Shown here one piece after another: positions 1,532 through 48,500 of a stretch of 64,000 nucleotides of DNA. The DNA lies in contig NC_092673.1 of the NCBI RefSeq assembly GCF_964355755.1, positions 33,055,648 to 33,119,647 of the forward strand. Direction: 5' to 3'. Position numbers and translations under genes: made by a program. The DNA is from Antedon mediterranea. Lineage: Eukaryota > Echinodermata > Crinoidea > Comatulida > Antedonidae. The notes under the pieces were generated by a model. That model saw only the letters and a program-made list of their open reading frames with translations. It searched no databases and was not told where the DNA came from. Within the stretch, counting starts at the first letter, position 1, and every line of letters starts with the position of its first letter.

Positions 1532-2422
1532 CACTTACAGTATATTAATTGATTAAGAATGTATTTATTTATTATACATTATTGATTATAGACAATTTAT
1601 ACTTGTATATAAAATATAATAAATCATTTTCTGCCCTCCAACTGCATTAAATCAATTTTATATTAACGGATATTCATTCATAATAATCAGAAGTAAAAAT
1701 AGGCTAAACCCCCGAACATATACTGCACTCACTCCATATTACAATACAGTAAACAAACAGTTAAAATATACAACAACATTTAACAATTGTAATACAATTT
1801 TAATTAAATCTTCGCAGGAATAATAACTCATTTCTTCTATTAAATATACAGTTAGGCTACAGTATAGCTTGGAGTAACCATGAGTATAGGATGGTATCTT
1901 ACAGATGTTTTTACTGTATTTATAATTTGTCACTACAAGATGGTAACACCTTTTGTCTGTGTATTTTTAATTAGATATAAATAATGTATACGATTAATGT
2001 TATTGGCAGGGAATGATATTAATGGTCATGTACAGTATGTTATAAATTATATTTAATATCAATTGTCAATATGGCATTGGTCACAGACATCACCTCTGTA
2101 AAATGACATTTTAAAATAAATTTAGATTTTTTGTCACAGATTTCTTTTATAATTGTTCAACATAAAGAGATTGAAATAACTAGCAGACAGGTCAATTAAA
2201 ATATATATATATATATATATTATTTTTGTATAGTTTTGTGTAAAGTTGATAAACATTTTGTTTTCCAACCATTATTTGGACCTCATGGTTATGTCAATGT
2301 GCCATTACGAATATTGTTTGCTGAATATGTGTATTTCTATTTCTGACTATTTTGCAAATATTATTTCATTTTACATCTAGAAATTACTAATATTAATTTT
2401 GTTCTTATTTATTTACGTACAG

Positions 2423-5400
2423 GAGAAGAGCTAGCTGTGTATAGGGGTGAGGATGGAAAAGCCCATGTTGTCAATGCATATTGCCCACATCTTGGAGCTA
2501 ATTTAGGGGTCGGAGGTCAAGTGAAGGGTAACTGCATTGAATGTCCATTCCATGGTTGGAAATTCAGGGGAGAAGATGGAAAGTGTGTTGACATACCCTA
2601 TGCAAGTAAAGGTAATGTTTGAGATATTGATAGAGAATACCAAATATGGCTCAAGTATAGTCCCAGGGGGGCTGGGTATAAATTTGTTCATACTTCTCAG
2701 GCTAGATGCAGTTTAAAACAGTTGATACAGGACTGCATAATGTGTAATAGTAGCCAGGAAGTGTGTGTTTTTTAAATCTTTCCTCTGAAAAATGTGAATT
2801 AACTTTATTAAAAATAATTATTATAAAAATATGATACATTATTAAAACAGTGTGTTTTTGTTTTGTTATTTTGGTATAACTCATTTCTATGAGTAACTAT
2901 AAAACCGTTACAATAACAAAAATTGTCTGGAAAAATGTAAATTATCTGTCTTTTTAATAAGTCATGTTTTTAAAATAATATTTGTGGTATTTCTGTTTCC
3001 AAATAAAAGGTTTTATGCTAGACATCTTGTGGCTAAACATTTTTTTTGGACGACAAGAATACGTGCTTTATCCTCATAACATCGTTGTAGAGGGATAATT
3101 ACCATTGATATAGACATGATATTATTGCTATTATGGTTATTAGAAATACCTTTTTCTCAGGCTTTTTTGCTCCAGGGTAAAGTTTTTTCATCCCTGGGGT
3201 AACAGCTGAGTAAGCAGACATCATCCAATACTTTTCAATACATATGTTTTTAGGTTTTAGTCAAGTTTCGGTTTATTTAGGTTTACTGTACTGCTCCATG
3301 GTATTGCTATATCAGATGGCATTATGTTAATGATCGCTTTTATTAGGTTTGTTAGTAAGAAGCTTAGAAATAAGAAACTACAAACTTCATGTTTTTTATT
3401 AAATTAAACTTGCAACCAGTATTGGGAACATGATGTCATAGAACCGTTACAGTATAAAAGGGATACTTTCTATTCAAACAAACAGGTAATATATGTCTCA
3501 ACACTACAACTATCCTCTATTCAGGGGACACCTACAGTATTATGAGTCACTTTGTTTTGTTCCAAAGATGTCTCTATTAAGTGTATCATATATGAATTAT
3601 ATACACACTTGATATCAGTAGCAATGTAGACATTATTATATGCTAGCAAGCATTTATACATCTAAATGAACCATAACAACCATTAAACAAGGGATGTATG
3701 TATTATAGCTACCAAAAGATTAAGATCTGGGCAAAAGTTAATTTGTAAATGGCAATTGAAGGCCTAATTGATTATACTACTTTAACTTGTATGTAATAAA
3801 TACCTTTCTTAGGGTTAGTGTGCTATAAGGTGAAAATTAAGTGCAAGGATTTAAAGTAAACTTCGATGAAATTAGATGGAAGAAATATAGGTCTTTACTG
3901 TGCAAACTAAAGCTCTTTGTCTTTTGGTAAGGGTTTACTTAGATTTGAAAACTTTCGTGACATGCTCCCTCCTTGCCGCGAGCAGACAAGAACCCGAAGT
4001 CTAATATTTATCAATAAGCTTCATGTGCCAAGGTTTAGAACAGAGCCATATAGAAAGTCTGCCATACCAATAATTATTAAAGCGATAAACAAAATGTGAT
4101 ATATTCGAGTCTCGGTTGGGGCGACTTTTTCTCATTCTTACAGATTTCCTCATCTTTATCGTTTTAAATTAATTAATTAAATTTCACCGGGCGGTTTAGA
4201 ATTAAAGTTCTTTGCCTGATGTGTTTAAAATTCAAAGGAAAATTACTGAAAAAATTACAATGCTGTGGGTATCAGTGACTGGATCTCAATGGAGATACAA
4301 AAGAAAAAAGCGAAAGCTAAATCAAAATGAAAAGTAAAACAGCCAGAAAAGTTAATTTAAATACTTTAATTAATTTTCACCTGGATCCTTTCAATTCAAT
4401 ATAGGCCTAGGTCTTATAATGAAAAAAAGGTAAAAATCTGTTGTGTATATTTATGTATAAATGTTAACTTTCTTTTAAACCTGCAATATTATATGTTAAC
4501 GTTTTCAACCTTTAAGTACCGACTGTTTTGTATGTTTTTTTATACCAAAATAAATAAATGTGGTAGTGATATGACATCATCATGTCCATATATGGGCACA
4601 TCACATGTTTTACTCACATAAAGTTTAATTGTGTAGACAGAGCTTTCCAAATTAGAACTCTTTAGTTTAAAATTGCACAAAAAGCAGTAAACAAACATAG
4701 CATTATATCGCAATACGGGTCAGATTTATCAAACGCATCTTTACTTTGTTTTAAAAATAACTTGGGCCATATTTAGAAAAAATATATAATATTGCTTAAG
4801 TTAAGCAATTTTGTTAAATCGAAAATTTATTTTACACGTAAAGGATCAATTTTCACTTAAACATATATCAACAATTTTCATAATTTTAAAGTTTTAGCAA
4901 TAATATTTGCCAGTATGTGACCAATTCAGATGCAAATATTAATAATTATTGAAAACTTTAGAAAAGTCAATATTACAATGTTTATTTTGTAGTTCCAGAG
5001 TTTGCAAAAATTAAGTCTTGGCCGTCAATTGAAATCTATGGACTTGTTTTAATGTGGTATCATGCGGAGAACTCGGAGCCATTATGGTATCCACCAGAAA
5101 TTCCAAACTTTGACAAAATGAGATATCAAGGGTACACAGAACATCAGGTCAATGCTCATATTCAGGTAAATAATTCTTTTTGTTTATATGGCTCGATTGA
5201 AATACCGGTTCTCATCAGATCATTAAAGTTATGAAATGTTGGGCCGGGTTGTGTTCTTGAATGGGTGGGGGGGGGGGGGGAGTATTTGGTATTGTACAGT
5301 TATAGACCAGATGTGAATGCTAGGGAATCGGATTGTTGGTATGTGATAGGCAGGGTTTGAGCCTGTCTGTGTCATATTGATTGTATCCCTTAAGCAAGAT

Positions 5401-15553: not shown

Positions 15554-16396
15554 TTAACATTTTAAGTTACTTTTGTATTTTAATACAGATAGTAATATAT
15601 TAAAGGCTTGCTTGTCCTTGGCTTTTGACTTGCAGATAAATGGTAGGCGGTTGCCGCATGGTGCAGCATGCCATACACCTCCATGACTCTTGAATATTGC
15701 CGTGCATTCAGTAGGCGTGTGGAACAAGCCTAGCACGTGTGTAGGTTGCGATTTGTCCCAATAAGCGAACGTATACAGAGAGCCGTCAAGCCAAATGGTC
15801 CACTTATTTTTTTTACTATATTTCATTCCAATCCAGTAGAATCCAATTTTAATTATTTTTTTCAGTAACACGTTCTCTTCCATCGAAGTAATGGACGTTA
15901 ATTGCCCGTGTAATTTCTAGAAGTTGGAAAATATGTTAAATCATTAGACGTGGCGTAGTACTATACACAGAACAAATCGAGGCTGTTGGGGACATCTCTA
16001 TCAAGATGACAACAACGTACAACGAGCAATATAAAATTAATGTTTTAACACTATGTCAAATCCTTATTTATCAATATAGGGACACTTGGTTGGTTCGTTG
16101 GTTCCTAACTAACGGTGTCCCCTCCCGTGTCCCCTTAATAAGGGTTACTGTACATAGATTCAGTCTGTTTTAGTTTTATGATTCTCATATATTTTGGTCG
16201 ATGGTGATTTTTTTAAACTTAGCGTGTGTTGTTGATGCCTACTTACCGTTTCACAGTGTTTCTTCGCGGCAGAAAATGTATGAGCAGTTTCAACTACAAC
16301 GTAACAGTATCCGTTTAACTCGGCATCACAAGCAAACGAAATTTCTAGAGTGGACAATACAAAAATAACCCCGATAATTTGTCCAACAACGACCAT
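15554..16396 (-). CDS. secreted single-domain C-type lectin-like protein
   Basis: Two exons on the minus strand: 16396-16247 (50 codons, donor GTAAGT) and 15916-15554 (120 codons plus stop, acceptor TTCTAG), joined in phase 0, giving 170 residues. Residues 1-22 are a hydrophobic signal peptide ending ISFA. The CTLD follows: CDAELNGYC (long-form cysteine pair), AAKKHC, LTSITSMEEN, FYWIGM (the conserved WIG), TEC, PCGNRLPFIC. All six long-form cysteines are present. The EPN/QPD calcium-site triplet appears as QPT, and the usual WND is replaced around WHAAPC, so calcium-dependent sugar binding by the classical site is doubtful. Likely extracellular; ligand unknown. An AATAAA lies just downstream. 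Confidence 0.9.
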
Positions 16397-17409
16397 GATT
16401 GTCTGATTCTGTTGAATACAGTATCTATCTGGTTAGACACGAGCTAGTAGGACGGAGCTGTTGGAGAGTATACAGGTGTCAAACATACAAGCCGTGTATT
16501 TCTTAAATTTGCATATTTGTATATATCCACGGGGTTATCCACGGACGCGTAGTGTATTGATCGAAATATTTGTTTGTTGAATTATGGAGGAATCCTCCAT
16601 GGTCGTTGAATAAAGTTTGGAAAGAAAAATTGGATTGTCTGCAAAGTAGCATATGCTCTCGGAAGATTCATTGCACTGCTTTAATTCCTAATAGACAGGT
16701 AGGTCTTGTAATTTTATAAGTCATTTAAAAATGATTATTGTGTAAACTTGTAATAATAGTATTTCATGCCTGACTGACTACAGGTAGTCGTCACGCTCCG
16801 ATTATTTGTCATTTACAGATACACATTAAACCCCCTTCCCTACATGTAAGGGGGTTGGGGATATTCGACGCTTTCTCTTGAAAGGAACGAGTGAAAATAC
16901 AGGTTTAGCACACCAACCCCTCACCCTAGTGGGACATTTCTATGAGAGGGACGCTAATGTGTCCCATTAATAGGCTACGTATTATAATAAGACTTTGTTT
17001 ATGTAGAGCATCTCGTGTATATGGTTGTCTGTGATCGGGATTGCCACCTTTGAAAAGGATAGCGAATGAATTCACGTGGACATTTTCCTGAAATGAGAAT
17101 AAATAAATAAATGAAATAAATAAATGCAATAAGACAAAAAGCAAAAACATTTTCTAATTTAGGCCTCATATGAAATATGTTAATTTATTAAGTCGAATTA
17201 TTGTTTTTTTAACATCTTTTTCCTTTGAGCGGATTACAAAAATACTATTATGAATTATATTGTACTACATACAATTCAACAACTGTCATACATTTTATTT
17301 TTTTGGGGGGGTGGGGGGGGGGTTGCATTCTTTTTTCTAGTCGCATGCTAGCAAATAATTATATTTTGTTCATAACATTTTGTTTACTATGCCTATACTT
17401 ATTAGATAA

Positions 17410-18630
17410 GTTAAGATTTATGGTATAAGAGGAGTTCCGCTAAACTGGTTCTCAAACTATCTTAAAAAAAGACTACAATACACATTTATTTTTAATACTG
17501 CATCTAGTAAAATGACAGTAAACACTGGAGTTCCTCAGGGATCCATATTGGGTCCATTATTATTTCTTATATTCATTAATGATATTAGTCTAGCATGTAA
17601 CCATGTAGACATGATTATGTATGCAGATGACACAAATGTGTTTTATAGTCACAATGATATTACTCAAGCTTTTGATACAATGAACCAGGAGTTATCTATA
17701 CTTTCGGACTGGTTTATTGCTAACAAATTAACGCTAAATGTAAACAAATCAAAATATGTTATATTTAAGGCTAGAAATAAGTCAGCTGACACTACCTCAC
17801 TAGAATTGAGGATGGGAAATGAATGTATAGTAAAAGCTACTGAAGTTAAATTTCTAGGCTTATTTCTGGATGAAACTTTATCGTTTAATTTTCATGTAAA
17901 TGAGGTAGCAAACAGTATTTCTAGAATAATTGGTGTCTTAAACAAAGTGTTAACGGTATACAATGCACTTATATTACCTAGAATATCGTATGCTATCACA
18001 GTATGGGGTGCTACTTCTGCTACAAACCTAAACCGTATACATATTCTCCAGAAAAAAGCACTTAGAAATATTTGTCATGTTCATTTTATGCATCCTTCTG
18101 ATCCACTTTTTATTTCAACCCAAACATTAAATATTTTTGACCTTTATACGAAACACACTGCTATATTTATGTATCAATATAAACATAATCTATTACCTGA
18201 ATCATTTAATAACTTATTTAGTACATCTGCCTCATTCCATAATTACTCAACTAGAAACAGGTCAAACTACTGTCCACAACTAAAACGCACCAAAGTCGGA
18301 CAGCAATGTATTTCCTACCAAGGAACACATATTTGGAACAATTTAACAGACTATAATAAAACAATCCCCCACTTTAAGTTTGTTTAAACAGAGATTAAAG
18401 CAATATTATAACAATAGAAATATTTAAGTTAAGTAAATCACATTATGTTATTTTGGTTTGTTCTTTTTGTTTGTACTAATTGTTTGATCTTTTTGTTAGG
18501 GTTACATGCTTAAAGCACTTGTGCTTATTTTGTATCCCATTCCATTATCTTATTATTTGTATTGTATTTGTATATGTTTTTATTTTGATTATGGAATAAA
18601 AATGTCGATGAATTGAATTGAAATTGAATA
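17410..18630 (+). mobile_element. 5'-truncated non-LTR retrotransposon with reverse transcriptase fragment
   Basis: An open frame runs from about 17410 to 18387 (ATG-initiated part 17512-18387, 291 residues). It starts inside the RT domain (GIRGVPLNWFSNYLKKR), contains VPQGSILGPLLF and the catalytic YADD at about 17620, and continues through the thumb into a C-terminal region with HIWNNL. The endonuclease and ORF1 parts are missing, as expected of 5' truncation. The 3' end has a short GAATTGAATTGAAATTGAA tail near 18610. The frame is intact over nearly 1 kb, so insertion is fairly recent. The type is CR1/jockey-like; the exact clade cannot be set by eye. Confidence 0.88.
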
Positions 18631-18689: not shown

Positions 18690-18890
18690 TGTACAATGCT
18701 GATGTCGATATCAGTGCCTGGATCTCAATGCAACGGAGATATAAATAAAATAAGCAATGAAAAAAATACAATGCTGTGGGTATCAGTGGCTGGATCTCAA
18801 TGGAGATACCAATAAAATAAGCACTGAAAACATGACAATGCTGTGGGTATCAGTGCCTGGATCTCAATGAAGATATAAATCGAATAAACA
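18690..18890. repeat. tandem repeat, about 68 bp, three units
   Basis: Three units each contain CAATGCTG, a GTATCAGTG and CTGGATCTCAATG block and an A-rich spacer with AAATAAAATAAGCA. The same unit occurs singly at 4258-4330. It lies between the LINE and the first coiled-coil gene. Confidence 0.75.
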
Positions 18891-18957: not shown

Positions 18958-18963
18958 TTTATT
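18958..18963 (-). terminator. AATAAA polyadenylation signal of coiled-coil gene 1
   Basis: Plus-strand TTTATT reads AATAAA on the minus strand, 35 bases after the stop codon of the gene at 18998-19858. Confidence 0.5.
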
Positions 18964-18997
18964 TTTATTTCTATATTCACACAATTTTATTATTAAG

Positions 18998-19858
18998 TCA
19001 TCTTCCACTTTTTGCATTAGCAGATATTTCACCAGTTTCATCAGTCATTTTCCGAAACTTTTTAAAAACGTGTTTCAATTCCTGTTGCTCCTTTTGTTCT
19101 ATAGACATCACGTGTTCAATTTCTTCCATGTCGTGCGTAAATTCATCCTGCAGTTTTCTAATCGTTTCCTTCTTTTCTCCATCTTTCATATTTCCAACAT
19201 GTAAGTTCTTCAGCTTGTGTTCCATCTCTTTTTCTGTCTCGTAGACGTCCCTCATGCCTTGCATTTCTTGATGGTTCCTTTTGTATTTGACACCAAGACG
19301 TTGGCGTAACAAAGACATGCTGTGACTCTTGTCTTTCTCGGACAAATCCGAGCTTTTGATTCGTCTAATCTGTTCTAACACGTGACTGCGGAGGCCATGT
19401 GCCACTCCAGCATCGCCCTAAAATGTCAAGAAAATAATGTGTTACCCGAAGTGTTTATGGGTTTTAAAAAAATACAGCATAAATACGTATTCTACCAAAC
19501 TACTGTAGTTGAATCTTCATAAAATAGTGGCAATTGATGCGCGCGTTAATAAGCTGTTGATAATGGCACGTATCTTGCACGCGCGCGTTAAATGTGTGTC
19601 TCGGTACGTGTGGTCTCTTTGTGCGCACTCTGTGTGCGTTATGTTTTAAATTGTTAATAATCAAAGACTTTAAAGCGCTATATGAATCTTTGATAATAAT
19701 AGCAGAATTATTTCCTCCTTGGTAATATCAAACAATATGACATTTAACAAATAAGTCTTGTAATAATAATTGTATGTAATCGTACTTACCACAGTTTCTG
19801 CATGTACAGATATTATAACTGCAAACCACATAAACAAAAACGCAACTTTAATATGCAT
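18998..19858 (-). CDS. small secreted coiled-coil protein, paralogue 1
   Basis: Minus-strand exons 19858-19790 (23 codons, donor GTAAGT) and 19417-18998 (139 codons plus TGA, acceptor TTTTAG), phase 0, 162 residues. Exon 1 encodes a signal peptide (AFLFMWFAVIISVHA, cleavage likely near HA-ET). The mature chain has no cysteine or tryptophan, is rich in K, E, M, Q and L, and is predicted by eye to be long helix/coiled coil, with key stretches YKRNHQEMQGMRDVYE and KLKNLHVGNM. It is clearly homologous to the neighbour at 20624-22347, with the same 23-codon signal exon and the same intron position and phase. I recognise no named family; a secreted structural, matrix or immune role would be speculation. 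Confidence 0.85.
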
Positions 19859-20370
19859 GTTTAGTGGTGTAACATAAAGAAATGAATGATGTATATTTTC
19901 ACCTCGAACGATGATCTTTTAAAACCGTAATGAGCCCGAATCAATAGGGTCGATTGTAGCATTCGTTTCTATAGGAACCACTGGTGTTGTATAACCTGTC
20001 CATTAAAATTACTTCAAATCGATATGAATAATTTACAATGGACGTGGTTGGTATCTAGGATATTTGAAAGGGGCATTGTCATAATTATTTATAACCACAA
20101 TACTTTTTCACTAACAATAAAAGAAAAGCTGTTATTGTATTTTATTTATTGCCTTAAAAAACATACAAAAGTAAGTAGAATTAGAATGTACAGTATAAGA
20201 TTAATGTAATATGCTAATACTGTATTTAAATTCAAATAATGACACAACTCACTCTAAATAGTGTTATTTGTTGAATGAACAATCACAATGCATAGAATAC
20301 ACATGCAGTAGACAGTGTGTGTATGATTACCAAACAGCTTGCTGAACATGGTTTAAAGAAACAAATGTAT

Positions 20371-20508
20371 TCTACACTATCAAAATAGTTAGACAAAGTG
20401 TGACGTTCCCGAATAGAATAATGATTTGACATCATCATGTCCATATATTATGGGCACATCACATTAATTTTTCTTGACACATAAAGTTTGATAGTGTAGA
20501 CAAAGCTA
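20371..20508. mobile_element. MITE family A
   Basis: Begins TCTACACTATCAAAATAG and ends AAGTTTGATAGTGTAGACAA, with the internal GACATCATCATGTCCATATA and GGGCACATCACATT motifs. It lies between the two coiled-coil genes, just past the 3' end of paralogue 2. Confidence 0.75.
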
Positions 20509-20601
20509 CGGTATAGAGTTTATTGGAACTTAATTGTAAATAACTGCAGTACGTAGGCCATAGCGTGTGCTTCTGGGATTAAGTGTTTAATTGATTTGTT
20601 T

Positions 20602-20607
20602 TTTATT
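20602..20607 (-). terminator. AATAAA polyadenylation signal of coiled-coil gene 2
   Basis: Plus-strand TTTATT, 17 bases after the TAA of the gene at 20624-22347. Confidence 0.5.
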
Positions 20608-20623
20608 TGGCCTAGCTCCTCGT

Positions 20624-22347
20624 TTACTCTTTTTGTGATGCTGCCTTCTTCTTTCCGATGGCACCTTTACTCTTTATTTTCTTGAAGAGTTCTACCAACT
20701 CATGATGTTCCTTTTCTTCGGCTGACAATAGTTTCTTAATCACTTCAGTCTCCTGCGTGATTTCTTTCTCTAGATTTCCAATTGACATTGTCTTATCTTC
20801 TTCTGGCATATCGTCAAGCTTTACGTTCTTCAGTTTGTCTGCCATTTTCTGCTGTTTCTCATAGACAACTTTGAGACCTAAAATCTCTTTGGTAGTTCTT
20901 TTGTACTCATCCTGAAGATGTTTTCGAATCTTATTCAATTTACCCGGTTTCTGCAAAATCAATAAAAACAACATGTCTTTATTTTTAGGCCAAGATAATT
21001 CCAGATTAATTTGTTAACCCTGGGTTATTTTTGGTTCCATGTCGTTGCGCCGACAAGGTTTGAAATGCATAGGCAGGCTTCTAGCTTCTAGCAGAGCTAT
21101 TGTATTTTTAAGATTTACTTTAAGATTGATTAATTGTAAGTGATAGGCCTATTCTCTAATTAAAATTTATAATGAATCTCTACCAATTGAAATAAGTTTC
21201 AATATTTATTATTTATTAACTATTAACAGAATATTTATTAATACTGGATAAATATAAAACGTAACTTAACTAAATCGTACCGTAATCCGAATAATTAAAG
21301 TTGGTGACTACAGTATAATAAAACGATGAAACGAATTTAGACTTGTACAATAAAAATAATGGGTGTCTCCAAGTTAAAAAGAAACACGACGCTTGGCAGT
21401 GATCCGTTCCTACAGCCTTTGTGAGGAGGAATTAACGCCATTCTCTATCTGTCTCTAAACTCCTTTTAGTCATCAAGTTGAGCCGCCGACAAGTTGAGCC
21501 GCCACCAGAAAAACGTTATTTTTTATGGAACGCCAAATGCTAACTTTCGCCGGTGCTCGTTCTATTTATATTATTAAGGGATTGATGTACATTCAAAAGT
21601 TTATATATCATGGTTTTTAGTATATATATTATAAAATATTATAATTAAAGAAATAATTATGAAAATCTGGCTTGTATATTCCAAAATATAAAACATCACC
21701 GAAAGTGATCGTTTTTAGCCAAAAATGACGTAAACATGTTGCCCCTCAGTCGGCAGTTGTATGAACTAGGCTTACTCCATTTTTCGGTAAAATAATTACA
21801 TAAAATCACGTTTTTTAGTAAAATATTTTGTGTATTAACATTGTAAAATTCAATAAAATATGATATTAAAAGATTAGTAAATAAAAAATAATATTTATTT
21901 AACCTCATTCGAAGAATGTTAATACTCTATTAATTAGTCCTGAGAGAGGACAACGTGACTTTACGTGGTAGGCCTACACGTGGCGAGAAAAATTATGAGT
22001 GCACTGAATTTTTTCCTCGAAAGATTAAAAACAATTACATTATTAAATATTACTACTTTCCTTTGCTGTGTTGTTAATTATAATATGTAATTATATATTA
22101 TTTATTTTCATGACACAATAAACCAAGACCATGAACTTATGTACTAGGACACCATCCTAATCACTACGCGAAATGTCGTAAAAGACGCATGCACTGGGCG
22201 TTTCATAGAAATCACCGGCGGCTCAACTTGTCGGCGGCCCAACCGGTCATATCCCAAACAGAATTGTTTTTAACTTACGAATGCTTCAACTTGTAATGTT
22301 AAAATCACTATAAATGTCAGGAAAATAAGTCCAGTTTTGGCGTCCAT
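20624..22347 (-). CDS. small secreted coiled-coil protein, paralogue 2
   Basis: Minus-strand exons 22347-22279 (23 codons, donor GTAAGT) and 20950-20624 (108 codons plus TAA, acceptor TTGCAG), phase 0, 131 residues. Exon 1 is a signal peptide (GLIFLTFIVILTLQVEA). The mature chain is lysine/glutamate-rich and helical with no cysteine or tryptophan. It aligns with paralogue 1 over almost its whole length: YKR, then VYE, KLKN, DDM, then S-EEKE-HEL-FKK at matching spacing. The C-terminus is very basic (KSKGAIGKKKAASQK). The intron (1.3 kb) has gained an inverted-repeat element at 21480-22240. It is probably a lineage-specific family that arose by tandem duplication; the function is unknown. Confidence 0.85.
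21480..22240. mobile_element. inverted-repeat DNA element in coiled-coil gene 2 intron
   Basis: CGCCGACAAGTTGAGCCGCC near 21483 is exactly inverted as GGCGGCTCAACTTGTCGGCG near 22214. Weaker inverted similarity continues inwards (TTTATGGAACGCC against the complement of GGGCGTTTCATAGA). There is no transposase frame, so it is a non-autonomous element about 760 bp long. Confidence 0.7.
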
Positions 22348-29700: not shown

Positions 29701-32700
29701 AAATGAAAGAAGAAAAAGTTTCAATGTTTTAGCATAGAAAAGCGATGATATATTTTTGTATTTTATTGATGGTAGCCATTATGATTAAGAAGAATTAAAA
29801 TTAAATTTATTACTTAAAGCATTTTAAACGTTGTTTATGTTTAATAGCTAGTTTTACAGCATCACCATCATAATCATCATTTTTTTTATGCTGTTCTCAT
29901 CACGGTTTACAAGTTGAGTTTTTACACCTCATGTTGTGAGTTGAGTTTTTACACCTCATGTTGTGAGTTGAGTTTTTACACCTCATGTTGTGAGTTGAGT
30001 TTTTACACCTCATGTTGTGAGTTGAGTTTTTACACCTCATGTTGTGAGTTGAGTTTTTACACCTCATGTTGTGAGTTGAGTTTTCACACCTCATGTTGTG
30101 AGTTGAGTTTTTACACCTCATGTTGTGAGTTGAGTTTTTACACCTCATGTTGTGAGTTGAGTTTTTACACCTCATGTTGTGAGTTGAGTTTTTACACCTC
30201 ATGTTGTGAGTTGAGTTTTTACACCTCATGTTGTGAGTTGAGTTTTTACACCTCATGTTGTGAGTTGAGTTTTTACACCTCATGTTGTGAGTTGAGTTTT
30301 TACACCTCATGTTGTGAGTTGAGTTTTTACACCTCATGTTGTGAGTTGAGTTTTCACACCTCATGTTGTGAGTTGAGTTTTTACACCTCATGTTGTGAGT
30401 TGAGTTTTTACACCTCATGTTGTGAGTTGAGTTTTTACACCTCATGTTGTGAGTTGAGTTTTTACACCTCATGTTGTGAGTTGAGTTTTCACACCTCATG
30501 TTGTGAGTTGAGTTTTTACACCTCATGTTGTGAGTTGAGTTTTTACACCTCATGTTGTGAAGTGATTTTACTATTTCTTTCTACTGTTTCTCATCCAGCA
30601 GTGCAAATCCTATTAAATTATCAATTTGACCCAACATATATACAGTGGGACAGCCAGTCGACAAATCGTGTCAAATTTCGACTCGGAGAGGGCGCCCTAC
30701 TTTTCTAATTTAGTTCAAAATTGCTAAATTTTAGGGTGTTGGAAAAACACAATATTTGTAAATTTAGCTGATTATCGGAAAAATATTGTTAGTGAAATAA
30801 ATTCATAAATGGTTTTAATATATTGTCATACAAAATTAAATGTATTTGAACAAAACGATAATGTGTAATTTAACGGCAAAATCAACCAATGTCTTTTTTC
30901 CGAAATTGTACCCTAGAAAATCGTTAAAATAAAATATTTAGAAAAATTGAACAGTCCTGAATTTAAAATCCCTGTTAGAAAAATTAATAATCTACAGAAT
31001 ACGATATTGAGATACAAAATTCGGTGGTTGGGATGCAGCTCCGACTATTCAAACTAAAGGTACCACTATTTGTTCCATCGAAAACTAGCGAAACCGCCAT
31101 TTTGTAAACACATCGTCATCGTGTTTATGAATTTATTTATAGCGAACGATATACGCGATGTTTATAATTGTCCGCGTATAAGAATTCATAAAAATAAATA
31201 CATTCCAATACAACGTATATTATTACTTGTTTATTTATCACAGTATACATTTTAGTTGAGGAATATTTATCATAACTATTATAATAGCTTTTATACGAGT
31301 CCGAGGCCTAGCCCTATTAGCGAGCGATTGTTCCAGGGGCGGAAAGTCACTTAGTGACGTTGTGATCGGGCGCGTCGGGCCTAGCTAATATTAATAATAT
31401 GACCTGAAATAAGCGGCTAACAAGAACTGTTATATACTTGCTTACAATTGTTTTGTTATTGATGAACAAACAAGCAATTAGATTGAATAACAAATTATTT
31501 ATTAATTTTTTTTGGGTAAAAACATGTACAAACTAGTACTGTATAATATAAATTAATAGTAATATTAAACTAATACAGTATTAATAAAATATAAAATAGG
31601 CCTAACATACAATAAATATTCAATTTTTAAGGTCTACCACATGACAATAACATAATTTACAGAGTATAAGTGTAGTAGGTTTGCATTCAACATAGATATT
31701 TGTATTGTAATTCATCTAAATCCTCTGCAACATATATATATTTGTAATTCAACATTTTGTTTTAAATAATTTAATTATAGTTTGGGTATGACAATGTCGG
31801 TAGGTACCGGTGTCATCTTTTTATCCACTTGAACACTCTCAGTTTGAAGTCACAACGACAAAGAACTCTGCATCATCACCGATTCCTGAAAGTGTCAGAA
31901 AAAATAATAAATATTATTTAAAACAAATTGTAATGTCTGGTTGTATATATAATTATAATATTATATGATGACATAAAAGTAAGGCAAATGGAAGCTGTAT
32001 TTTATTAATTAATATTACAGTATTTGCTATTATTATTTATATAATCTAGGCCTAATAGTAGCCTAGCTAGGCATCTATTGAGCCTAATAAATCAAATAAT
32101 AAATGAAAAATAAAATAATAATATTAATACTGATTGAAAAAAAGTATTTTGGGGGGGGGGGGGGATCAGATCACCAGGCTAGGCCGGCCAGGACCAATGA
32201 TACTCGTAATCAGTACAACTTAACGACTATCGGATCAGCATCAACACAGTACAACACAGTACAACACACGTCTCGCTATTGCCTATACTGACACACGTGT
32301 CTCGCGTTGCCGAAACCACGCTCACAGCTAGAAAATGTACCTACCTTTCGAGGCCTGAGAATACACCAACAAATTTTGAACAGGATAGAAATATATCATA
32401 CTCGATTAAACTAATATTATTCTTGATAAAACAATTGATTATAATTTTTTTAATTTGTTGGGATGCACCTCCGACTATTCAGAAAATGGACAACAAAACA
32501 GTAGTCAAATCGTACCACATTTATAAATTTCACGAGTCCCGACTTCAGTCGCCGAATGTATTGTATTAGCTTCGGTTTCTTTGAAGGAAACCGATTGGTT
32601 ATTCAATTATACTTATTAGGAAATGCTTTTACCATAATAGGTAATGTTGGGCGGTTCTTAAATATTCATGAGAGCTTAAAATAAAACAGCACTTATTTGC

Positions 32701-35700
32701 TAGGCGACGAAAAATCGTGGTTTCAGTTTTCAACGATAGGTGGCGCTTCAAAATCGTCAATGCGGAAGTAAGTCGATTTTACACGATTTAACGGTCAAAA
32801 CGCGAAGTGGCTTTCCCACTGTATAAAATCCATCACTTGTTAGATTTTCATCTAGGTCAGCTTTTTATCATAGTTACAGCAAGTGTTGTTTAGGAGTGTG
32901 GATGTTTTCCTCAAAACCAGTCCAAATAATTTTTTCACTTTTAAAAAGCGGAGCTTAATATGTCGACTTTGCCCTCATAGAATCTACCTTTGCTATGAGA
33001 GTGGCTGAATTTTCTTTAGTACATTAAATAACCAATATTAAATCATGTTTATTTTTTTTTTATTTTAGAGGACCTTATAGATGATTACACAACGAGTAAA
33101 CTAATGGATTGGGAACCAGATGGGAGTATACACGATGACGATACCGTTTTTCTATCGGATCATGGCAATGACGACAAATCAGACAGTTCTGTTGTCCAAA
33201 TGGACTGCCAATCGTCCGCAGCCACAAGTTCAGCGGCAACCACACCTTCCGGGATAGCGCCCCCACTCGTTGATGAAGAGACGAGCCACGCTTTTTTCTG
33301 TTATAATAAAGAAGATGACGAGTGGGCAATGAACGTTATGCGTAACCTTGAATCGCCGTCGTACGGTTTTCGATTCGTGAATCACAATCATGAACTAGAC
33401 CCACATCAAACACGGATGGATGCCATTGTAAATGCCATGAGTACCGCCAAGAAAATCGTAATTGTATTAACGCCGGGATTCATGCAGAGTATCTGGTGTC
33501 GCCACGAAAACTTAAAAGCCTTGCGGCCTTATTTTGCCGACCCACGAAAGGTCATTCCAGTTATACTTACAGAAGTTGATTTACCAGACTTTTTAGAAGG
33601 AATTACGACAATAAATGCTTTATCAAAGAACTTTTTACAAAAATTTGTTGCTACTCTGAGCCAAGGTTTGTTTTTATAATGTAGATTTTTTAAATACTAA
33701 ATATTTAAATTTTCAGTGATTTTTTTTTTATGTAGATTATCGGCATGTTCAATTGTTGCTGGTACTGTAGTCTATTATTCTCTATCGGCACGGTAATGTT
33801 TTATCCACATGGTTGATCTTAGGGTCTGTTTCTGCTGCATAACGCAATTTAACCGGTTATTTTTAAATAGATTAAAAATAGATAACAATAACAAGACCGC
33901 GTTTCTGCTCAATTTGTGCTCCGAAATAACCGGTTAAATCTATGGGTGGTCATCGAGCAAAACGTCATCATTACCCAAAATGCAATACACTCAGACGGAA
34001 GTAGTAAGTTGGCTGTTTGTTTACATCGACGTCGTGAGTACACACGTGTGTATATATCGCCGAACATCTCACTCAAACATGTTAAAAAAATAAAATGTTG
34101 TCTCCAGGTCTACAAGTTTTGTTTTTTGTAAAGCCTACTTACATCGCTAATAAAATTAATTCTCATGGCGCCTTCAATAACATGATGGGGAGGGTCGTGC
34201 AGCGCCCGATCGCCTAGGATAATTTTTATCCTCAACAAAGGCGATGAAATACGGCCCTTCCCACGTGAACGACTGTTGTCTTTCGCGAGCGCGGTCCTAC
34301 AAAACACCAAACGGAAACAAAAACGAGACTCAGATTGTTGCAATACTTACCAAACAAGAGTAGATAATTGTTAATTAATTATGAAAACCCAACTTTTATA
34401 GCAAAAATCGTCCGAATTTATGTTAAAAACGATGAGTTTAGCCACAAAAACTTAAATAAAACGAGAGTATCCAAGTCATAGAATATCGCACGCACATAGT
34501 GCCTTTAATAAAGTAATGAGTATTGAACATTATTTCCTATATTTATGTACTAACATAAATAATAACACATTTCTATGCCTAATAAAATCATATTTAATAT
34601 ATTATCAAAGGCTCTGATTGGTTATCCGCACTTGGCGGATAACCCCTTGTTATTGTCAGGATCTTTTTTTTTTTCTTTTTTTTTTTCTTTTTTTTCTATT
34701 TTCTTCTTTCTTTCCACGAATTTTGTTGCACGCATATCTCTAATTCTGGCCAACATAAGATTTTGTAACTTTGTCATAATATTGACCTGTAGCGGTAGAT
34801 GTGCAGGACGTTCGTTTTTTTACTTTAGAGTCGCGCAGCGTAAGTTACGCGCGATTTTACGAATTTCAATGATTGATCATAGATTAAAAACTAAAAGTCA
34901 TTTTGTATTGAAACTTGGTGAACATTTAAGTCATATCATGCGCAAACTTTCTATGGATTAAAAATGGCATGTTTCACATAAAGTTACGCGTGCACGCGAG
35001 TTTAAAATTTCAAAATGCGTAAAATCAATTTCTAATCAACTTTCTACGCGTTTCAGGTCATTTTGAGAATTTCAAAATTTCCCAAGGGTGCGCAATTTTT
35101 TTACGCGCGCGTGCGCACGTAGCGCAAAAACATCTTTTTTTTGCTTGATTTTTGTTTTTTCAGTCTTTTATAGTAAATTTACCAATTTTCAATCAATTTC
35201 GACTTCAAATCACGTCATACGAGCACGTAGAATTGAACAATTTGCGCGCGTTTTTGATGAAAAAGTTCAAAAATTCGTCAAAATTATGCCTTTTTTAAAA
35301 CAGTCATAGATTCTAAACTACGTGGTGAACTTTTTTATAATTACATATTCTGGTAGTAGATAAGTTGCAGATATCAAATCTTGCATCAATATGGCTAACC
35401 GGACATTGTGACGTCATCGTATGGCCACTCGAATATAAAATATAGGATTTTTGTCTCTTTCCTCGTAGCTCGTCACATTTAATATAGCGCATCTCCACTT
35501 ATTTGTATTCCATTTCCCCCCATTTTTTTATGTTGTCTAGGTCAATCAATTATCTTTCGCACGATTCACCATTTTAAAAATTGTGATAACGTCATCATGT
35601 TCAAAAGCGTCAATAACTTTGGTCACTTATTTTCACCTATTCTGCACTGTATGTAGTACGTATACAGTATATAGTGTATACCGTATATACTTAGACGTGA

Positions 35701-45578: not shown

Positions 45579-48500
45579 CTTTGTACAATGGCGTTAAACT
45601 TGGTGATGTTAGGTCGACAACAAATGGTTGCAGATCTAGGTTTGACACGATTTATTGTCCAGACGAGATTGCGAGGAGAGGCGTAAACGTAAGTATTCTT
45701 CAATATTGTTGTTGTTTGGAAAATCCCAATCTGTTTGGATATCGCAACACTAGTTTTTTAGTGCACATGAGCTATATGCTTAATACACTGGACTAATTTT
45801 TTTGTTACAATGGATTGCAGCACCTCCGCCTTAACCACTTGACATACTGCCCTCTATGGTTTGGCCACGCTTTTGTAAAATCTCCCGATATTTTATTTTG
45901 TCAGGACCTCTGTACTTGATGTATCAATGATATGTTAAGTACTGTGGCCGTGTTGAGCCTACATTTCCTCAATTTAAATTGAGGACAGTTAATAACATTA
46001 ACTTTCCTTTATGTTCTCATTATAAAAATAATAATTTATTTTACAGATTCCACAAAGAGATTACACAGCAGCTGTGTCATTGATGATTGATGACCCCAAA
46101 ATGAAATGCTACACACTCTGGTATAACCAACCATTCGGTTTACTAATGACTTTAGTCCTCTGCAGTCTTGTCATTGTCGGTATCATTGGTAACCTTAGCG
46201 GGTTTGGTGAGAGCAATGGACCGTTACATATTGGTGTGTCAACCGTCGTCGCTATCGTACTCTGTCTTGTCATAATTGGTTTATTAAGTCTGATTGCGCA
46301 TTACGAGAAAATTAAAGTGAGTGAATTTTAAAGACATCATTTCATTTCAATATTTAATAATATAATTGTTGATTTAGCATTGTATTCAGCGGGGTATTCA
46401 GAGTTTTGTTGTTTCAACGTGCATATAGTGAAAAGCTAAAAAAGCAGCTCAATCACAATATAGGCTTGCTACCTGATAAACTAGAGTATTTCTGTAAAAG
46501 TAAGCTGGTATTGTAACAGTTTACCTGTTTTACCCATATACACAATAACATAGTAATATGCCTCTAAAAATAAATGGGCACTGTGAAAATTACTATAGGC
46601 TATATGGACACCTTGAAGTTCAACAAAAACAATGCCATTCTGATTTCTCCCCTTGCCTCCGGCCTTCTCTCCCACCAACTCATTTATAGAGCTATAGCTA
46701 TATTTAGAGATATTTGTATTCAAACATCTTTGTTGTTGTTATCTTTATACTTAATCAGTAATTCAAATGTAATTATCATTTATTACCGAAGGGAATTTCA
46801 TTAAGCATTATGTATGTTTGATTAAGGTTAATTAATAATTAGATTTTATCATCAGAATGGCTTAATTATGCATATCAATACAACCACAATATAGATCTTG
46901 AATTGCGACACAGTAATTAATTACATATTACCTAATGACTTTCATGTCATACATTCATCATTTTTTAAATTATCATGTGTTCGTCGGCAACGACAAAGCT
47001 AAGCCTGTGAAATTATATATTGGTAACATCCTTTAGTTACCAATCCCAGAATTCCTTTTCTGTCACATGTCAAGATTTGTTCTCGTGCAGTAACTTTTAA
47101 AATTACTGTTTTGGGTTTAATCCCACCCCCTACTTTATTGATTATATTTTCAAAAACAGGCATATCCCTGGGTATAGTCCAAGTATTGACTTTTAGTCTG
47201 GATGGAAGCCTCTCTCTAGCCAGTTCAGATGACAGGCATATCCCTGGGTATAGTCCAAGTATTGACTTTTAGTCTGGATGGAAGCCTCTCTCTAGCCAGT
47301 TCAGATGACAGGCATGTCCCTGGGTATAGTCCAAGTATTGACTTTTAGTCTGGATGGAAGCCTCTCTCTAGCCAGTTCAGATGACAGGCATATCCCTGGG
47401 TATAGTCCAAGTATTGACTTTTAGTCTGGATGGAAGCCTCTCTCATAGCCAGTTCAGATGACAGGCATATCCCTGGGTATAGTCCAAGTATTGACTTTTA
47501 GTCTGGATGGAAGCCTCTCTCATAGCCAGTTCAGAATGACAGGCATGTCCCTGGGTATAGTCCAAGTATTGACTTTTAGTCTGGATGGAAGCCTCTCTCT
47601 AGCCAGTTCATATGACAGGCATGTCCCTGGGTATAGTCCAAGTATTGACTTTTAGTCTGGATGGAAGCCTCTCTCTAGCCAGTTCAGATGACAGGCATGT
47701 CCCTGGGTATAGTCCAAGTATTGACTTTTAGTCTGGATGGAAGCCTCTCTCTAGCCAGTTCATATGACAGGCATGTCCCTGGGTATAGTCCAAGTATTGA
47801 CTTTTAGTCTGGATGGAAGCCTCTCTCTAGCCAGTTCAGATGACAGGCATGTCCCTGGGTATAGTCCAAGTATTGACTTTTAGTCTGGATGGAAGCCTCT
47901 CTCTAGCCAGTTCAGATGAGTTTTTACAGGAAATGCAATACCAGGGTTTCCCGGGTATAGTCCCAGGGTTTCCCCGGGTATAGTCCCACCCCCTAAAGTT
48001 GATTATACCAGAGGATATACGGGTAATAAATACTGTACAGTACATTATTTTGATTTGATGAATCTCCCTCATTCTAACTACCACATAGTTAGTGGCCATT
48101 GTATTAAAATTTAATATTCCTATATTCCTAATCAGAGACACACTCGATACTAATTTATAATCTTAGGCACATATGAATCTACAATAGCTTTCAGTATATG
48201 CAGTGATGTAGCCACTGGAAATAAAGTGATCTGGTTTTCACAAAAAAAGGGAACATAATCTCTGTTCAAGCCACTAGGTTGTCAAAGCCCTCTGTGAAAA
48301 TGTGATCAGGTTGAAACCTTACCAACTATACTGGGGGCTATGGACCTGATATGACTGTAGAAATCAACCAGATTCGTAACTTGTAATGATACATTAAAAT
48401 ATTATTTTATAATAAATTGTTTTTAAATACTAGTTTGTTTATTTCTTATAGTTAACAACACAAATGGAAAAACCAATCGCAAAGGCTAATGGATATTTTA

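Follow-up and report, generated by a model that had tools for sequence, protein, structure and literature searches.

Two adjacent minus-strand genes of the crinoid Antedon mediterranea, which we call gene A and gene B, are real-looking genes at the sequence level, and the explanation that we favor, with slightly less than even confidence, is that they arose by an old tandem duplication and encode secreted coiled-coil hairpins whose action is extracellular protein-protein packing. What the DNA and its translations show directly is the homology of the two chains, their hydrophobic leaders with splice donors, the absence of cysteine and tryptophan from both mature chains and a conserved hydrophobic pattern.

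Gene models, leaders and surroundings

The stretch of DNA that was analyzed (the window, 64,000 nt) is placed at C4:33055648-33119647 of the assembly (354 Mb, 18 contigs). COX1 gave 0 matches in this assembly, which therefore probably lacks the mitochondrial genome. The span given for the pair in the first-pass annotation, 18998-22347, was exact, with both genes fully inside it (gene A, 22347-20624; gene B, 19858-18998). The features are as follows:

22279-22347, minus strand: gene A exon 1, 23-codon leader with ATG start, hydrophobic core and phase-0 donor GTAAGT
20951-22278, minus strand: gene A intron, 1328 bp (~555 bp if the inserted element is left out)
21474-22246, no strand assigned: inverted-repeat (MITE-like) element, ~770 bp, with arms at 21477-21503 and 22217-22243
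20624-20950, minus strand: gene A exon 2, 108-aa mature chain and stop codon; predicted helices 2-41 and 50-104
20519-20607, minus strand: gene A candidate polyadenylation signals, AATAAA from 20607 and 20524 and ATTAAA from 20591
19790-19858, minus strand: gene B exon 1, 23-codon leader with phase-0 donor GTAAGT
19418-19789, minus strand: gene B intron, 372 bp
18998-19417, minus strand: gene B exon 2, 139-aa mature chain and stop codon; predicted helices 9-22, 27-71 and 80-127
18958-18991, minus strand: gene B candidate polyadenylation signals, AATAAA from 18991, 18969 and 18963

Both genes thus have the shared 23-codon leader exon and the phase-0 intron at the same place that had been described for them, each with a GTAAGT donor. 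Exon 2 of either gene is preceded by an acceptor AG with a pyrimidine-rich stretch upstream, as read from the sequence, and splicing from the leader to exon 2 is predicted. Both stop codons are trailed by AATAAA signals. Neither mature chain has a Cys or a Trp, again as described, the single Trp of gene B being located in its leader, and the predicted proteins are basic (pI 9.46 for A and 8.75 for B).

We scanned both strands of 264 kb of contiguous DNA for stop-free stretches of 15-35 codons that run from an ATG to a phase-0 GTRAGT donor. This yielded 28 stretches, two of which reached the hydrophobic-core threshold, and these were the leaders of A and B. The scan is a strong but post hoc check of the two leaders, because the threshold was picked after they had been seen, from the weaker one. 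On the basis of this hydrophobic-core scan, the products of both genes are probably secreted. The leaders are equal in length and architecture and have little sequence likeness (7 of 23 residues identical, counted by eye).

Most of the gene A intron consists of the ~770 bp element, a multi-copy sequence with inverted repeats of 27 nt (96% complementary) near both ends. A DNA search of the assembly returned 44 matching rows for it, corresponding to at least 40 places, itself included, after two second-piece rows and two short inverted-end rows had been left out; this count is a lower bound, because 40 of the 703 candidates were scored. Among the matches listed, the closest other copies are 98-99% identical, and the sequence looks like an inverted-repeat element that was active fairly recently.

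The surroundings of the pair contain several other features. Just downstream of gene B lies a LINE-like remnant with a reverse transcriptase ORF (17410-18387, plus strand; Pfam RVT_1, E 8.7e-18), and a 67 bp tandem repeat of 2.6 copies is found shortly downstream of the gene (18709-18887). On the minus strand there are an ORF with a leader-like start and no Pfam match (16160-16432) and a C-type lectin ORF (15554-15916; Pfam Lectin_C, E 1.2e-9). Splicing of gene B onto this downstream lectin was set aside by reading, because the ORF adjoining the lectin starts with a leader-like stretch of its own. A TIR-domain ORF (33032-33679, plus strand; Pfam TIR_2, E 1.5e-13), a 27 bp minisatellite (29912-30560; 24 copies, 99% matches, one open frame per strand) and a 76 bp tandem array (47156-47919; 10 copies, 98% matches) are also present, as are a Rieske [2Fe-2S] domain ORF (2347-2622, plus strand; E 1e-19) and an ORF without a Pfam match (4962-5234), which together, we presume, may represent a Neverland/DAF-36-like oxygenase.

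Homology of the two chains and copy number

The mature chains had been proposed to be homologous, with aligned YKR, VYE, KLKN and FKK motifs, and this was borne out: the motifs align gap-free over 93 residues, of which 33 are identical (35%) and 59 positive in BLASTP (57.8 bits). The alignment score of 164 was reached by none of 5000 shuffles, the maximum of which was 91. Hydrophobic residues occupy 23 columns of this block in both proteins, 5 in A only, 4 in B only and 61 in neither (Fisher p = 3.5e-13), so that 23 of the 32 positions that are hydrophobic in either protein are hydrophobic in both. Because the hydrophobic columns coincide, the hydrophobic pattern has been kept while much else changed; the 33 identities include 12 hydrophobic and 17 charged residues.

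Among the 93 codons, A and B differ at 39 first, 25 second and 53 third positions, the kind of pattern expected of two constrained coding sequences rather than a measured selection ratio. In the NG86 calculation, dN was 0.47 and dS non-finite (saturated). The older duplication suggested by the first-pass annotation is supported for a homologous, leader-bearing, helical pair, and the continued selection that it also proposed is compatible with the codon-position pattern but not measurable from two sequences with saturated dS. There is also a weak, unproven hint of an internal repeat, as the score of the N-terminal part of B against the C-terminal part of A, one of three comparisons, was reached by 32 of 5000 shuffles; that of the N-terminal against the C-terminal part of B was reached by 1909 of 5000.

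Searches of the whole assembly with the single proteins, at E up to 10, returned only A and B for each query. For the neighborhood, in which further copies had been thought worth looking for, we used an unfiltered search with a profile of the pair over the 6061 ORFs contained in the 264 kb, and found no convincing copy within 100 kb on either side (next full-sequence E 0.71; best other BLASTP match in the 264 kb, E 0.15). More diverged copies elsewhere in the assembly could have escaped detection, the assembly-wide search being of the single-protein kind. Outside this genome, 376 pattern matches in viral contigs and 559 in bacterial and archaeal genomes included no confirmed relative.

Gene architecture and copy number both bear on the idea that A and B are humoral immune effectors like SpTransformer (185/333) of sea urchins, flexible chains that turn helical on microbial or lipid targets. 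According to PMC5491942, SpTransformer genes have two exons, the first encoding a hydrophobic leader and the second the whole mature protein, and are tightly clustered. This plan of a leader exon and a single mature exon is matched by A and B, which are also tandem genes for basic, charged helical chains, and the same window holds the C-type lectin and TIR-domain ORFs, a weak piece of evidence. However, two divergent copies were found here instead of a large cluster of an estimated ~50, and the Gly-rich, RGD and His-rich features of SpTransformer are absent (no RGD; Gly 4.6 and 5.6% and His 2.3 and 6.8% of the full chains of A and B). As to the mosaic of repeat elements in the second exon of SpTransformer, what A and B show is the weak, unproven hint of an internal repeat given above. 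AlphaFold2 furthermore predicts ordered helices for both proteins, at odds with SpTransformer-like flexibility, and we regard this mode of action as rather unlikely.

Known families and the predicted fold

No family had been recognized for the pair initially, and none emerged from our searches, in which Pfam, NCBIfam and PDB sequences gave no significant match; the pair may, as had been suggested, belong to an undescribed family. The best Pfam entries were DUF5638 for A (E 0.083, 13.8 bits against a cut-off of 39.8) and Cap4_nuclease for B (E 0.0091, 16.7 bits against 26.2), from lists for which the HMMER filters discard most weak matches. The best NCBIfam matches (E 0.11 for A and 0.014 for B) fell far under the cut-offs, and the best E values against PDB sequences were 1 (A), 0.25 (B), 0.48 (pair profile) and 1.1 (helix 1 of A alone). 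The pair is not named in the extracts returned by a literature search, which we do not take as a claim of absence from print.

AlphaFold2 was run on the two-sequence alignment with five models per protein. Helix is the sole secondary structure in the best models, consistent with the helical mature chains that had been proposed: two long helices in each protein (2-41 and 50-104 in A; 27-71 and 80-127 in B), a short N-terminal one in B (9-22) and a low-confidence Lys-rich tail in A. The mean pLDDT of these best models was 80.4 for A and 79.5 for B (pTM 0.60 each), within a wide spread over the five models of 63.4-80.4 and 59.6-79.5, respectively. Superposition with VIA-align placed both on antiparallel hairpins over ~100 residues, with best Z scores of 10.7 (B) and 11.6 (A), in a range below roughly Z 13 in which a match of long helices may reflect the common arrangement alone. 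The PDB hairpins, among them CT398, LSD1, p85 of PI3K and prefoldin, share the two long antiparallel helices with the A and B models at 5-16% identity among the matches listed, and we take those named not to be secreted animal proteins. Foldseek gave no match at E 0.001 among 503 for B and 525 for A, and no secreted animal family was prominent among the best 50 rows of each fold search. A and B have a predicted hairpin fold together with the features of a generic secreted helical hairpin (a hydrophobic leader and two long predicted helices, antiparallel by superposition), which says little of function, because helical hairpins are very common.

One function that the predicted fold bears on is that of small helical signaling proteins, either cytokine-like or processed from a prohormone-like precursor, with YKR as a possible cleavage site. 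The small size, the leader, the helical prediction and the KR conserved in both chains would fit; yet the KR is located inside a predicted helix with a pLDDT near 90, there are no disulfides, and no cytokine or hormone family appeared in the Pfam or NCBIfam lists. A furin site has R four residues before the cleavage, whereas a cleavage at this KR would have E (A) or K (B) at that position. It is unlikely, in our judgment, that A and B are such signals.

In helix 2 of B, hydrophobic residues recur with a period of 3.5 residues, which was matched by none of 1000 shuffles and corresponds to a heptad (power 1.91, against 0.42 for a hendecad). Periodicity in the other four helices was not significant at the 5% level (53, 78, 110 and 123 of 1000 shuffles reached their values), and the strongest period of helix 1 of A was a non-helical 2.0 residues. 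These four helices speak against the explanation that we favor, as do the basis of the AlphaFold2 models in two sequences and the wide differences between them. Heptad power exceeded hendecad power in 4 of the 5 helices, with helix 2 of B as the only one to beat the shuffles. An improbable alternative, that the proteins are exchangeable lipid binders like apolipophorin III or apoA-I, draws on the leader-bearing, Cys-free, Lys/Glu-rich helical chains, but the one significant periodicity is of the heptad and not the hendecad type, and apolipoprotein families were absent from the Pfam lists.

We also compared the pair with RAP (LRPAP1), which chaperones LDL-receptor-type proteins. By eye, B resembles RAP domain 3 in the motifs S-x-x-L-S/T-D/E-K and K-x-N-H at equal spacing. 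The helices of RAP domain 3 run in the order short-long-long, as do those predicted for B, and RAP domains are devoid of Cys, as are the mature chains of A and B. The link was pursued because of the spacing-matched motif and this helix order, and rat RAP was found in the Foldseek list (rank 33, E 0.91). However, each of the 12 scores obtained by aligning A and B with six RAP domain sequences was also reached by 250 to 1499 of 2000 shuffles, and a profile comparison gave a probability of 0.2% over 11 columns. Neither protein was among the best 12 rows when the 264 kb were scanned with a profile of RAP domain 3, and PF06400 and PF06401 were absent from their Pfam lists. RAP ends in an HNEL-like ER-retrieval signal, which is missing from A and B, the chains of which finish with SQKE and KSGR, and the genome has matches to a separate RAP gene elsewhere, on contig C6. 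With the shuffle tests, the profile comparison and the profile scan all negative, RAP is unsupported as a detectable homolog, and we consider kinship with it extremely improbable. The genome's own RAP gene (C6:9667520-9671762) has two PF06401 matches over the cut-off, one of them reading through a TAG, in addition to a weak third PF06401 match (E 0.398) and a weak PF06400 match (E 0.489).

A putative mode of action and its meaning

The explanation that we favor, a pair of secreted coiled-coil hairpins, would start from an old tandem duplication that gave rise to two genes, each encoding a small secreted protein. Its leader exon would route the chain into the secretory pathway, with cleavage near the exon junction, and the mature chain would fold into an antiparallel coiled-coil hairpin of two helices of ~40-55 residues, to which B would add its short N-terminal helix and which would end in a flexible tail, Lys-rich in A. 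As hydrophobic residues are few and arranged in stripes, pairing with a second hairpin (A-A, B-B or A-B) is the most likely next step, which would produce a four-helix bundle, the charged surface of which may bind an acidic extracellular partner. For oligomerization, the partner and the site of action of A and B, we infer these steps from the chains and their predicted fold. A further-reaching version, to which we give little credence, is that A and B represent an undescribed, lineage-restricted family of secreted, disulfide-free coiled-coil proteins that assemble into an extracellular four-helix complex of A with B; a factor of humoral recognition or of the matrix that other animals lack would be one example.

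Animal genomes contain many unassigned secreted proteins, and as it stands the pair is an ordinary kind of find to which no striking function is tied. If confirmed, A and B would constitute an orphan family that is small and cleanly defined. Its genes would be easy to test, as they have two exons and encode short proteins without disulfides, and the family would be useful for understanding how lineage-specific secreted proteins arise and then diverge after duplication.
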